Assembly (NCBI RefSeq): GCF_000378165.1
Contig: NZ_KB899339.1
Location: forward strand, 1-64,000
Direction: 5' to 3'
Source of the DNA: Saccharibacter floricola DSM 15669
GTDB lineage: Bacteria; Pseudomonadota; Alphaproteobacteria; Acetobacterales; Acetobacteraceae
Length of the DNA stretch: 64,000 bases
This document shows, piece after piece, positions 25,683 to 33,621 of the stretch. How positions within the stretch are numbered: the first letter of the stretch is position 1; the number at the start of each line of letters is the position of its first letter. The notes under the pieces were generated by a model, which was given only the letters and a program-made list of their open reading frames with translations, had not been told where the DNA came from and searched no databases. Position numbers and translations under genes: made by a program.

Positions 25683-25794
25683 GCTGGGTCGTGTCTGGAT
25701 GTGATGGGGCGTGCGGCATGGTGAGGGCTCTTATGGGGAAAACGAGCAAGCCAACTTAACGTCAGGCCGTCATCATATCGCTGATGAATGGGTG

Positions 25795-26524
25795 TGTTCT
25801 GTCGAACAGGGCACGGCCATTGCTCAAGGAACAATGAACGCTGGGCGTGGATATTTCCTGAGATTGATGTGGCGCGGATGCGCGGTGATTTAACAGACGC
25901 AGAATGGGCGATTATGGGTGATCTTTTGCCGCCTGAGCATGGTCGCTGGTCACGTCCAGCACACGATAATAGGCTTTTTCTCAACGGAATGCTGTATGTC
26001 CTGCGTGTCGGTTGTCCTTGGCGAGACATGTATGAACGTTACGGGAAATGGAATTCCGTCTACGTTCGGTTTCGTCGATGGGCCGAACGAGAGGTCTGGG
26101 ATGCTTTGCTCGACACACTGGTTGACCTCGGTTTGACCGATGATTGGCAACCAACATATGATGGATAGCACCGTTGTCCGGGCTCACAGCCAGGCCGCTG
26201 GCGCAAAAGGGGACATATAAGGAGGGTTTTGGTCGCACCCCTTCGTCGATTTCTAGCCGACAAGGGGTATGATAGCGATAACATACGAGAAACCTTGCTT
26301 TTCCAAGCGGTTCTGCCCGTTATCCCGCTGCGATTATACTGTAAAGAGAATATTCCCTACGACATCCATGGTTATAGGGATCGCAATCATAGTGAGCGCA
26401 TGTTCAAGACACTAAAGCAGTTTTGTCGTATCGTCACACGGTATGACAAAACACGAAAATCCTTCCTTGCCTTTCTCAACATAGTAGCCGTGAAAATCTG
26501 GATCCCATCATGTGTCAACAGAAC
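25795..26524 (+). mobile_element. IS5-type insertion element, copy 2 (decayed)
   Basis: The right end is GTCAACAGAACC (26513-26524) followed by TAA, as at the outer end of copy 1. A plausible left end is TGTTCTGTCGAACA (25795-25808). The body is shorter than an intact element of this type because the centre of the transposase gene is deleted. The left boundary is a best guess. Confidence 0.6.
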
Positions 26525-26527
26525 CTA
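25878..26527 (+). pseudogene. IS5-type transposase, frameshifted and internally deleted
   Basis: From ATG 25878 the frame gives MRGDLTDAEWAIMGDLLPPEH and continues through WNSVYVRFRRWAEREVWDALLD to 26168. The next part, DSTVVRAHSQAAGAKG, is in another frame (from 26162). After that the text jumps to LRRFLADKGYDSDNIRETL and PYDIHGYRDRNHSERMFKTLKQF, ending KIWIPSCVNRT at 26525. The DDE catalytic core between AAGAKG and ADKGYD is lacking (some 80 residues in intact relatives), so the copy is dead. Confidence 0.85.
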
Positions 26528-26545
26528 AAGGTGACTGAGATCGTT

Positions 26546-28527: not shown

Positions 28528-28794
28528 AAAGATTCACGCTAACAAGTGGGGGAAAGAAGAGAATAGAAACATACCACTCTATGGGGGGTATGCGTAGGAG
28601 ACAAGGGAAAGGATGATCGGAATCATATGTATCACTGATTAGAGTGAGGCTATTCTCTGAATAACATTCCTATATAAAAACAATATCTTATAAAATAGTT
28701 TCGATAAAAAAATGATATTTTGATCTATATCAAATCTTTTCAAAAAGACTTCTTTGTAAAGTAAAAAGGTCACACAGCAAAAAGGAGTGACATC

Positions 28795-28968
28795 ATGGAA
28801 CAGTCAAAGAAAATCATCCTCGCAGCCCCTGCCGCTGCTCCTCTTTTAACCGCAGCGAGTGGTCAAACTCTTGCAAGCTCAGCACAGGATGAAAAAGTCG
28901 ATGTGGCATAAAGCCATATCACTGTGGGTTATTTCGGACGCCCTTCAGTGAATGGCTTGTTTGCTTAA
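28795..28968 (+). pseudogene. short precursor-like peptide gene interrupted by a stop (RiPP candidate)
   Basis: ATG 28795 follows a strong AAAGGAGTGA site. Codons 1-38 read MEQSKKIILAAPAAAPLLTA, then a stretch ending DEKVDVA, then TAA at 28909-28911. In the same frame 18 more codons (SHITVGYFGRPSVNGLFA) run to TAA at 28966. A 57-residue peptide with an Ala-rich leader and a short Gly/aromatic C-terminus, just before an S41 peptidase and a radical SAM/SPASM gene, is the layout of a cyclophane-type RiPP locus. If so, the TAA removes the core. As it stands only the 38-residue leader part would be made. The homology is inferred from layout, not from a recognised family. Confidence 0.55.
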
Positions 28969-29096
28969 GGCTGTCGTGAAGGATTCTCCTGATGATCTTT
29001 TGGAGAGACTGCTAAGTATGAGTGTTAATATAGGCCATTGTGAGAAAAGTCTGAATTAATAAGCATACATAATGTAATGGGTGGGATAGATATAAC

Positions 29097-30473
29097 GTGA
29101 ATAAGACTTTTCTTCTTATATATATAACAGCTTTTTTTCTGACCCCTTCATATGGGGTGGCGGAAACACCAACAGCATCATGCCCAACGTCTAAGGATTT
29201 TGCGACTTTAGCGGCCCCTTCAATGGCTGACAGGTTTTGGATTGCGAGTCGTATTTATGCGTCTGTTACGGCGCGTTTTGCGCATTGGAGCTCGTTAGAT
29301 CCATCATATGACTTCGATGAGCATTATCAAGATTATCTAAAATCGCTTTCGACAATATCTACACGGCTCGACTTTGACAAGAAAACAGCAAAGCTTTTTG
29401 CAAGTCTTCATAATACTCATACGAGTTTTAAGGATCAACTTGTGCACTGCTACCCCGGCCTTCCTTTCCGAGTAGGTTTTATTGAGGGAAAGTGGATTGT
29501 TACACGCTCTTGGACAAAGTCAGTCCCTGTAGGAGTAGAAATTAGCGCGATTAATCATGACGTTTTTTCAACATGGGCCGATCAACAAGTCGCGTTTATT
29601 TCGGATAGTTCTTTAAGGGACCAAAGACAAGATCTGACCTCTATGAAGTATGGGGTATGGCTGTGGCCACGAAAGTTCACGCTCACTTTCCATTTTCCGG
29701 GGAAGAAGGATGTATCAGTTGATGTAGATCGTAATCTTTCAGATTCTTCTGAAAAAAATCCTCCGATTAAGGGGCGTTATGTGGCTGTAAAGGGTGTCTC
29801 CGTGTCGCAGATTGCCCCTGGAATAGAGCGTATTACGGTCTCTGATTTTTCTCATCCTGAGAATGAGAAAAAAATGGTTCAGGCGGTGAGAGATCATCAG
29901 GATGTTCCCGCATTATTGTTTGATGTCAGAGGGAATGGCGGGGGGAGTGCACCCAATGATTTAATACAGTCTCTTTTGGAAAAACCAACGAAAGATGAAA
30001 TTGGGATGAGCCCGCAGCATATCGCGGTTAATGATGCTTACAGTGATGTAGCCCTATCAGATGTTCTGTCTTATTCGCATACATGGTTTCGCTTTGGTGG
30101 GGACGTCATAAAACCGAAGACATTGTACCATGGGAAGGTTTTTGTTCTCACAGATGACGGTTGTGCGTCAGCTTGTGAGGATTTTTTGATGATAATGAAA
30201 TCATCTAAGAGAGCTGTCATTATGGGGGAAGAAAGCGCGGGAGGGTATGGCCTTCGTTCTGATGTTTTTTTCCCAAAACAAAATATGAGATTTAGTGTCG
30301 GGGTCATCAATGTGTTGTGGCCTGATGGAACTGAGGCGGAAGGGAAGGGAATAATGCCGGATATTTCAATCCCTCTAACGCAAGAAGAGCTTTTAGCGGG
30401 GAAAGACGATGTCTTAGAAAAAGCTGTCAAATATATCAATACCGTTATGAAGAAAGAACATCATGGACAATAA
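29097..30473 (+). CDS. S41-family (C-terminal processing-like) peptidase
   Basis: 458 residues from a GTG with GGGATAG upstream. A signal peptide (MNKTFLLIYITAFFLTPSYG) exports it. The C-terminal half is a peptidase S41 domain: ALLFDVRGNGGGSAPNDLI, VFVLTDDGCASACEDFLM (Ser nucleophile in CASACED), GEESAGGYGLRSDVF, and WPDGTEAEGKGIMPDI. The N-terminal half (about 25-230) is not a recognisable PDZ domain. Its stop overlaps the radical SAM gene by 11 bases, so both are made from one transcript with the precursor-like gene upstream. It may trim a modified peptide outside the membrane; that is inference. Confidence 0.85.
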   Translation: MNKTFLLIYITAFFLTPSYGVAETPTASCPTSKDFATLAAPSMADRFWIASRIYASVTARFAHWSSLDPSYDFDEHYQDYLKSLSTISTRLDFDKKTAKLFASLHNTHTSFKDQLVHCYPGLPFRVGFIEGKWIVTRSWTKSVPVGVEISAINHDVFSTWADQQVAFISDSSLRDQRQDLTSMKYGVWLWPRKFTLTFHFPGKKDVSVDVDRNLSDSSEKNPPIKGRYVAVKGVSVSQIAPGIERITVSDFSHPENEKKMVQAVRDHQDVPALLFDVRGNGGGSAPNDLIQSLLEKPTKDEIGMSPQHIAVNDAYSDVALSDVLSYSHTWFRFGGDVIKPKTLYHGKVFVLTDDGCASACEDFLMIMKSSKRAVIMGEESAGGYGLRSDVFFPKQNMRFSVGVINVLWPDGTEAEGKGIMPDISIPLTQEELLAGKDDVLEKAVKYINTVMKKEHHGQ

Positions 30474-31445
30474 GATTGCATGTGCGCTTGATCCTTCTTA
30501 TCTCGGGTTGACGCTTTTCCCGACAGAGAAATGCAATTTTCGATTCACCTATTGCTATGAAGATTATACGCAAGGGAGGATGAGTGAGGAGACGGTAGAG
30601 GGGGTGAAAAATCTTCTCACTATGCGTGCACCGGACCTGTCTCTTCTCAATTTGAGTTGGTTTGGTGGGGAGTCTCTTCTGACTAAAGATATTTTGATTG
30701 ATGTGTTGTCATATGCTCAAAGGAGTATGGGTTCCGCCTTATATCGTCAGCGACGACTAATGGTTACTTGCTGGACGAAGAGACGTTTCTTGTTCTGGGG
30801 GAGTTAGGGATAACGGATTATCAAATCTCTTTTGATGGAGCGCGAGATTTTCATAATGTGATGCGCTTCATTAATCACCCCGACCGTAGTTTTGATAAAA
30901 TATGGGCGAATGTTCTTTTATTTAATAAACTAAGAAAAGAAGGGCGTCTTACAAAGGGGAAAATCCTTTTAAGATTGCATCTTCATGCAGAAAATCACGC
31001 TTCGTTATTAGAATTATCAGCTTTGATTAAAAAACATCTAGATCCCGCGTTTTTTAGTGTGTTGCTCAAAAATATCGCTCATTTAGGTGGTGAGCATGAC
31101 CATACTTTTGAAACGGTCGATCATAAAAGCCAGACATCAGCGCAACGTCACCGTGAGTTGACACAAATCTTGCAGGATTTTCAACCAACGGACCCGAATG
31201 AAGAGGGGGCAGGCTATGTCTGTTATGCGACGATGCCCAATAGCTTTGCGATCCGGTCAGATGGCGGATTAGCTAAATGCACGGTTGCACTTAATAGTGC
31301 GAAAAATCAACTAGGACAGCTGACAAAAGAGGGGAATTTTTCCTTTGACGAGGGGACAATAGTGCCATGGATCCGAGCCTTGCAAACGCTGGATAAACAG
31401 ATCGTGGCGTGTCCTCTCTCTTTTGTGGAAAAATATGCGGCTTAA
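30463..31445 (+). pseudogene. radical SAM/SPASM peptide maturase, inactivated
   Basis: The first frame starts GLTLFPTEKCNFRFTYCYED. The radical SAM motif CX3CX2C should have Cys at residues 24, 28 and 31, but residue 28 is Phe (TTC at 30544-30546, one base from TGC). The frame then breaks near 30735, where one base appears deleted; the other frame resumes with SSATTNGYLLDEETFLVLGEL. It runs to 31445 with YQISFDGARDFHN and SPASM-type cysteines in GYVCYATMPN, LAKCTVAL and VACPLSF. The similarity to SPASM maturases is clear, yet it should not hold its [4Fe-4S] cluster nor be translated in full. Confidence 0.85.
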
Positions 31446-31454
31446 GAACATGTG

Positions 31455-31479
31455 GCTCCCCAGATGATGTCTGGGGAGC
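31455..31479. terminator. bidirectional hairpin between converging genes
   Basis: GCTCCCCAGA (31455-31464) and its exact complement (31470-31479) are separated by five bases, between the radical SAM pseudogene and the leftward CPBP gene. No T-run on either side, but position and perfect pairing fit a shared terminator. Confidence 0.6.
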
Positions 31480-31489
31480 TAAGGCATCG

Positions 31490-32215
31490 TTAAGAGGTTG
31501 TCAGAAAGAAGTTTGTGAGATTGGCCATGTTATGGGCGACCATGCCACTGAAGACGGATCCTGTGCGATAACGAATAACATAAAGTCCTATGCTGATCGG
31601 GAGAACGCCTGCAAGAGTGCTTAACCAGTTGAAGCTGACATGTCCGTGAGAGATTGAAAAGAGGTGGAAAAGCGCGAACATGCCGGTTGTGATGGTAAAA
31701 GGTGCAACCCATTGCGGGATATTAAAGCGTAATTGGGGAAAGGCTTGCGAGGTGACCACGATTGCGACACCACGGAAAAAGAGTTCTTCATCTATGCCCG
31801 GAAGTGTTGCTTCAAAGAGCCAATTTTCTAGGGGATTGGGCGAAGAAGGATCACCTGAGACAAAGACAATTACACTCATATAGACCATTAACACCATAAT
31901 GCCGAGGGCTGTATCCCTCCATTGACGAGCTGTCTGTGGCAAACGCAAACCAACAGCGTTTGGAGAAAGTTTGAGCACATAGATGAGGATAATTGAGAAG
32001 AGGAGGGCGAGGGTTTTACCAATCCAGTTCCAGTGGCCGATATGAAGCGAAAGATGAACAGGTGAGACAGTGACGATGATGTCACCGAGAAGAATGGCAA
32101 AAAGAAGTATGATATAACGATACTGTCGTTGTGGAGAGAGGAGAATAAAAGGGAGGATGAATATAATCTCCCCTAGGAACATGGCTGCACAATATAGGGA
32201 AAAATCATTCATCAT
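31490..32215 (-). CDS. CPBP-family intramembrane metalloprotease
   Basis: 241 residues, about seven or eight transmembrane segments, inner membrane. The Abi/CPBP (Rce1-like) motifs are present: GIDEELFFRG (EExxxR), FALFHLFSISHG and MVAHNMANL. Such proteins often accompany bacteriocin or RiPP loci as processing or immunity factors. It converges with the precursor/S41/radical SAM genes and is intact while the maturase is broken, as expected if it had its own use (for example immunity). The link to the cluster is inferred from position. Confidence 0.8.
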   Translation of the reverse strand: MMNDFSLYCAAMFLGEIIFILPFILLSPQRQYRYIILLFAILLGDIIVTVSPVHLSLHIGHWNWIGKTLALLFSIILIYVLKLSPNAVGLRLPQTARQWRDTALGIMVLMVYMSVIVFVSGDPSSPNPLENWLFEATLPGIDEELFFRGVAIVVTSQAFPQLRFNIPQWVAPFTITTGMFALFHLFSISHGHVSFNWLSTLAGVLPISIGLYVIRYRTGSVFSGMVAHNMANLTNFFLTTS

Positions 32216-32842: not shown

Positions 32843-33621
32843 GGCTCTGTTAGGTCTTGAGGTAATCTGCTGTAGCAGCGATGAGGATCATGGAGAGAAA
32901 GGAAAGAGCGGTCTTTTCATATCGGGTTGCAACAGCCCGCCACTCCTTGAGCCTTGCCCACAGGTTTTTAATCAGATGGCGGTGTCTGTAAGTCCATTTT
33001 GGACAACTGATGTCAGGGTCGTTTCGCCGTGTTGGGCTAACAGGACACGCTCCATCGTTCCAGAGAGCGCTTTGGAACTTTTGGGAGGGATACCCACGGT
33101 CACAGACGACATAACCCGGTTGGTGAGGCAGGTTATCAAGAAGAGCATAAGCAGACGGTAATTCATGGGCCTGCCCGGGTGGAAGCATGAAAGACAGCGC
33201 TTTCCTGTGTCTGTCCGCACCACCGCAGACCTTGGTGACAAAATCTCTCATGTGAGCGGCTAAGAGCGTTACGACTTCTCTGGCTGCTTATGTATTTCCC
33301 TTTTTGGCCGCCCCGACTTCCTTATGATGAGCACGAATGATCGTACCATCAAGGAAGACCATGCCCACGGCTGGGTTTTTGCGGCTGCCCTTGTCGAAAA
33401 GACGTTGTCAGACACCACGTCTCGCCATGTCGCACTGTTCTGATGTCGCCAGAAACTTGCAGAAATTGTCTGCCGACGGTTCTTGGGCGGTGTCTTTCCT
33501 TTTGGGGGACTTCCTCAATAAGAGGCTCCCAGAGGAACCAGCTCTGATCAGAGAAATGGTCTCACTCACACTTATGACAGACAATAGGAAGCCTGCCCGT
33601 CGTTCAAAACCTAACGGATCT
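32843..33621 (-). mobile_element. IS5/IS427-type insertion element with terminal inverted repeats (decayed)
   Basis: The left end GGCTCTGTTAGGTCTTGA (32843-32860) pairs with the right end, whose complement reads AGATCCGTTAGGTTTTGA (33621-33604): 14 of 18 bases agree. Both ends are flanked by TA, which fits a short target duplication. At 779 bases it is somewhat short for such an element, so part is deleted. Confidence 0.75.
32850..33560 (-). pseudogene. IS5/IS427-type transposase, frameshifted
   Basis: The C-terminal part (33251 to 32850) is open and reads SFMLPPGQAHELPSAYALLD, VVCDRGYPSQKFQSAL, then HLIKNLWARLKEWRAVATRYE; the DDE glutamate region is there. The N-terminal part lies at 33252-33560 in other frames, where MVFLDGTIIRAHHK can be recognised around 33330-33370 (complement of the GATCGTACCATCAAGGAAGA region). 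A stop and a frameshift near 33290 separate the two halves. Not functional. Confidence 0.75.

Follow-up and report, generated by a model that had tools for sequence, protein, structure and literature searches.

The closest described systems are the PapB-family ranthipeptide maturases (NF047865), in which a small radical SAM/SPASM enzyme adjoins a short precursor with a C-terminal Cys; PapB is reported to make Cys to Asp/Glu thioethers (PMC9413430). Cyclophane-forming maturases (YhhB, FxsB and GrrM types) are also radical SAM/SPASM RiPP enzymes. Two further named models, TIGR04463 (maturases near Cys-rich peptides) and Clo7bot (TIGR04334), score best against the enzyme considered here, and the only solved structure that its sequence retrieves is 5wgg/5why, the thioether-forming CteB (SCIFF maturase). 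No paper describing the present gene set, or joining radical SAM, ranthipeptide and Xanthomonas, was found in the open-access literature.

The window analysed is a stretch of 64,000 nucleotides from Saccharibacter floricola DSM 15669 (contig NZ_KB899339.1, positions 1 to 64,000), a flower- or bee-associated acetic acid bacterium with a genome of 2.38 Mb. Within this known RiPP class, the locus it holds is a decayed representative of a branch that has been little described and whose members are scattered horizontally. As judged by alignment with its relatives, the locus is the remnant of a recently inactivated radical-SAM RiPP cassette, whose homology, motif and decay, with its recent and independent loss, can all be read from the DNA. 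A sequence-only reading had already proposed a decayed radical-SAM RiPP locus, which is borne out by homology to an intact gene pair in Saccharibacter sp. 17.LH.SD and by the visible decay. The features, compared with the copies in 17.LH.SD and in Saccharibacter sp. EH611, are as follows:

28783..28788, + strand: ribosome-binding site of the precursor gene, AAGGAG, identical in the EH611 copy
28795..28908, + strand: precursor N-terminus, comprising a Sec-like signal segment (MEQSKKIILAAPAAAPLLTAASGQTLASSA) and a linker, 81% identical to the EH611 copy
28909..28911, + strand: premature TAA in the precursor, a sense codon in both congeners
28912..28956, + strand: decayed putative recognition motif SHITVGYFGRPSVNG, aligned with SHITVDHLG in EH611 and GHLSVDHLGRPHLNG in 17.LH.SD (0/5000 shuffles)
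28957..28966, + strand: precursor frameshift immediately 3' of the motif, where DNA alignment places about one base more than in 17.LH.SD
28961..29059, + strand: out-of-frame rest of the precursor, LLKAVVKDS...VNIGHCEKSLN, which retains the conserved C-terminal Cys and matches the 17.LH.SD tail
29097..30473, + strand: S41 peptidase with N-terminal signal (PF03572, E 1.4e-20), still possessing the conserved GE motif and the conserved catalytic residues His (in HTSF) and Ser (in CASACED)
30463..31445, + strand: radical SAM/SPASM maturase pseudogene, now split between the frames 30463-30807 and 30738-31445, delimited by open reading frames and alignment to relatives
30544..30546, + strand: Phe codon (TTC) where CX3CX2C should have its second Cys
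30673..30675, + strand: codon 71, GGEP changed to GGES, the Pro being invariant in 10 aligned relatives
30720..30723, + strand: site where the maturase has lost 10 bases and with them its reading frame, seen by comparison with relatives
31490..32215, - strand: converging CPBP membrane protease (PF02517, E 1.4e-9), its membership of the cassette unproven

The two congeners were found with the C-terminal half of the maturase as query. Saccharibacter sp. 17.LH.SD encodes an intact maturase of 325 residues (CNFRCLYC and GGEP; PF04055, E 1.2e-12), with the CX3CX2C motif and radical SAM fold present, and 5' of it an intact precursor of 90 residues, MLKKTQKLFGLLAALPIATVGSSAALISSAHANTTSAVNVAEGHLSVDHLGRPHLNGQLMKFIVKDSATDDSDDPFEVLDVNGICSTKQF; the intact homologues to be sought in other acetic acid bacteria thus exist at least in this apparently complete pair. 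The EH611 cassette occupies the same site as that of the window, flanked by the same genes. Its precursor is open across the position of the TAA, where it reads CAG, but from the motif onward the first part of an IS5-like element stands in its stead. Also missing are the S41 gene and the initial 30 codons of the maturase, and the CPBP gene is frameshifted. The insert is called IS5-like because transposases of the window and of Neokomagataea anthophila (L021) have a similar DUF4096 start; the fragment alone found no match in a Pfam search. The window itself has, at 25788-26528, an IS5-like transposase with a DUF4096 start, split over two frames, which lies between folE and a cytochrome b561 gene and is absent there in EH611, and a DDE transposase fragment at 32850-33251, just past the CPBP gene and not seen at that EH611 site.

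The short gene described by the sequence-only reading is present in every detail: an ATG at 28795 behind AAGGAG, 38 codons, a TAA at 28909-28911, then SHITVGYFGRPSVNGLFA in frame. The suggestion that the 18 codons beyond the stop are not chance also holds, given the CAG codon of EH611 and a search of the whole genome with the precursor of 17.LH.SD as query, whose single match in the window genome is the 28795 locus with the TAA read through (E 4.5e-4). These codons do not form the end of the peptide, as had been thought: LFA is frameshifted sequence, and the original runs on in the next frame as LLKAVVKDSPDDLLERLLSMSVNIGHCEKSLN, about one extra base having entered after NG. The score of LLKAVVKDSPDDLLERLLSMSVNIGHCEKSLN against the 17.LH.SD tail was reached by 0/2000 shuffles, and the other downstream frames did not match that tail. 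Besides the TAA and this frameshift, the motif Asp has become Gly. No model was matched by the precursors in an NCBIfam profile search, or by the window peptide in a Pfam search.

The maturase has fared similarly. Loss of the middle Cys of CX3CX2C is confirmed, TTC standing at 30544-30546 where 9/9 relatives aligned there have Cys; the one-base deletion formerly placed near 30735 is actually the 10-base deletion at about 30721. Peptide and maturase do carry several independent lesions (TAA and frameshift; Cys to Phe and 10-base deletion). That the locus nevertheless functions as it is, through TAA readthrough, frameshifting or a two-piece enzyme, is barely credible: the S41 reading frame is intact and the maturase fragments are largely open, but an otherwise conserved cluster Cys is lost, GGEP has become GGES, the deletion breaks the frame, a precursor gene of about 90 codons has two separate lesions, and no second maturase copy was found in the window genome.

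The inactivated cassette died recently, as had been proposed. The maturase dN/dS between the window and EH611 is 0.15 (flanking genes, 0.03-0.12), which indicates that purifying selection held on through most of the period after the two lineages split, and 54/70 changes in the 3' part of the maturase fall at third positions. Because their lesions differ, the two lineages lost the system separately as well as recently: sister strains have lost it twice, one by point lesions and small indels, the other by an IS fragment and a deletion. The third strain retains an apparently intact copy at another chromosomal site, a pair suited to expression.

The enzyme resembles the described maturases at a distance. 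The best NCBIfam scores of the intact 17.LH.SD enzyme are 122.9 bits for TIGR04463, 101.5 for Clo7bot and 99.7 for PapB, with 46 for YhhB; all are far below the curated cut-offs (525 bits for TIGR04463, 600 for Clo7bot and 340 for NF047865), so that the chemistry is not assigned by family even by the best of them (123 vs 525 bits). Matches start at position 80-88 of the TIGR04463 and Clo7bot models, whose N-terminal part is thus missing in the congener enzyme. This enzyme likewise lacks the extra N-terminal part of CteB (325 vs 453 residues), the match to 5wgg/5why being limited to residues 16-153 (E 3.1e-10). Unlike the PapB type, its precursor has a Sec-like signal, an h-D-x-x-G-R motif and, in Saccharibacter, one Cys. 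Candidates for the C-terminal auxiliary-cluster cysteines are three Cys invariant in the maturase alignment (254, 273 and 317 in P0005), but no SPASM model scored above cut-off. A thioether is the likeliest product, to go by these resemblances.

The precursors give a clearer picture of what the enzyme may recognize. Upstream of this maturase clade, in several phyla including Proteobacteria, Cyanobacteria and Actinobacteria, lies the motif h-x-h-D-x-x-G-R/K, carried by short genes just upstream of the enzyme in Sphingomonadales (SHISLDQYGRPAVKG), on an Acetobacter tropicalis plasmid (ASISFDAHGRATVAG) and a Sinorhizobium meliloti plasmid (SISLDESGKVVIS), and in Streptomyces canus (DVELDDAGRIVLN), Nonomuraea (DVSVDEEGKVTIQ) and Nostoc (LVNIDETGKVVIN). 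A regular expression for the motif, composed after examples had been seen so that the contrast is descriptive, finds it upstream of the enzyme at 18/36 loci and in 4/1075 control reading frames. Its variants include DHLGRP in 17.LH.SD, DHLG in EH611, DQYGRP in Sphingomonadales, DAHGRA in Acetobacter tropicalis and DEEGK or DDAGR in non-proteobacteria. Common to the precursors 3' of the motif is a C-terminal stretch with at least one Cys (NGICSTKQF, GVNCHTCHMPTA, NGNCKGVCMPHVV, NINCVAGCG and NNCFGGNCTSGC); the Saccharibacter core has a single Cys, as against the multi-Cys cores of other members. Since the motif is shared across loci and followed by this Cys stretch, it is most simply read as a recognition sequence, on which the enzyme probably docks, and the C-terminal Cys segment is most likely the core. 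The motif provides a testable link between precursors from Proteobacteria, Cyanobacteria, Actinobacteria and others.

On this alignment the window's YFGR is what decay has left of DHLGR, and SHITVGYFGRPSVNG is a decayed copy of the recognition motif, not a core. The sequence-only reading had instead suggested YFGR as the core of a three-residue cyclophane (aromatic-x-Arg). VGYFGRPS does place aromatics shortly before an Arg, but such a product is very unlikely: no conserved aromatic-x-x core was found at this position in the relatives' precursors (DHLGR, DQYGR, DAHGR, DEEGK), nor is an aromatic conserved among the motif variants; the motif lies N-terminal to the conserved Cys tail; and profile scores for the cyclophane-forming types (YhhB, FxsB, GrrM) are low, the YhhB model giving 46 bits vs 100-123 for the thioether and Cys-rich-peptide models. 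As a side observation, the enzyme has matches in 13 Bradyrhizobium plasmid records, and on a plasmid of the soybean symbiont Bradyrhizobium barranii (L098:3690-5843) a motif-bearing precursor ending NNGGCQCN occurs with a maturase and a DUF4097 protein.

Leaders differ among the precursors. A hydrophobic, signal-peptide-like N-terminus is present in Saccharibacter, Sphingomonadales, Caulobacterales and Acetobacter (best 15-residue mean hydropathy 1.75-2.46) and is lacking in Sinorhizobium, Bradyrhizobium, Streptomyces and Nostoc (0.47-0.67), while several other precursors have double-glycine leaders beside C39-ABC transporters. The Sec-like signal 5' of the motif, judged from sequence and hydropathy, is found in alphaproteobacterial precursors and is lacking in most others. 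We suggest, as a tentative proposal rather short of an even chance, that the locus points to a horizontally scattered RiPP family without a name, whose defining traits are the h-x-h-D-x-x-G-R motif and a small radical SAM/SPASM enzyme, with a Sec signal in place of a double-glycine leader in its alphaproteobacterial members; if so, a radical-modified peptide would leave the cell by the Sec route. Separately, in Neokomagataea anthophila (L021:4514-13093; also L038) a maturase relative is clustered with a protein of 567 residues in which C39-like, Fic and 2OG-Fe(II) oxygenase domains are joined, a fusion unusual in a RiPP cluster, and with an aspartyl protease and a C39-ABC/HlyD exporter.

The part played by the two proteases is less certain. 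Their arrangement is as first described, the S41 frame (29097-30473) sharing 11 bases with the radical SAM frame (start 30463) and the CPBP frame (31490-32215) converging, but their standing as necessary components is not upheld, as no S41, CPBP or exporter gene was found beside the intact 17.LH.SD locus. S41 was also rejected as a marker of the system, its homologues in three other Acetobacteraceae (about 38-40% identity) being orphan genes. There is close to an even chance that S41 and CPBP are unrelated neighbours that never belonged to the peptide pathway, which would be compatible with the explanation favoured for precursor and maturase. This would fit the orphan S41 homologues, the presence of S41 near only 3/~66 other relatives (L085, L065 and L037), and the fact that all close relatives lack both genes, as does the neighbourhood of the 17.LH.SD cassette; it sits less well with an S41 gene that separates precursor from maturase, shares their strand and overlaps the latter, and with S41 genes adjoining relatives in Bacteroidales (L085) and Elusimicrobia (L037). 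A CPBP neighbour is confined to the window and EH611.

Overall, a recently dead radical-SAM RiPP cassette is a likely explanation of the locus, with its chemistry, motif docking, export route and S41 role inferred. Modelled on the intact congener, the ribosome would have made a precursor of about 90 residues, consisting of a Sec-like signal peptide, a short linker, the h-x-h-D-x-x-G-R motif, an acidic spacer and a C-terminal Cys core. The freestanding radical SAM/SPASM enzyme would probably have docked on the motif in the cytosol and used radical chemistry to build a link, in all likelihood a thioether, at the Cys of the core, after which the peptide would have been exported and trimmed, in the ancestor of the window perhaps by the co-transcribed, exported S41 peptidase. 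Now the locus is dead: a frameshift and a nonsense codon interrupt the precursor, while the maturase lacks one cluster Cys and is thrown out of frame by 10 lost bases.

The family is rare and patchy, with the maturase in 4/397 Acetobacteraceae genomes and in 1/385 of a sample of the class (the window's own), and it also occurs on plasmids and viral contigs. Its position varies inside the genus. In 17.LH.SD the cassette lies between leuS and a transporter gene. The counterparts of these flanks are about 4.6 kb apart in EH611, which has its cassette at another place, and fall on different contigs in the window genome. The gene of 17.LH.SD that corresponds to the window's queD neighbour lies about 240 kb away from its cassette. 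Among the viral contigs, a maturase relative adjoins phage-type genes in L102:3941-5138, where a short, motif-like, Cys-containing gene follows 3', and near 4001 in L107. In three others (L108:3732-5029, L110:3686-5074 and L111:3621-4999) maturase relatives have phage-like genes as neighbours, and immediately 5' of each is a small gene with a signal-peptide-like start and a Cys tail; these may be phage-borne RiPP cassettes.
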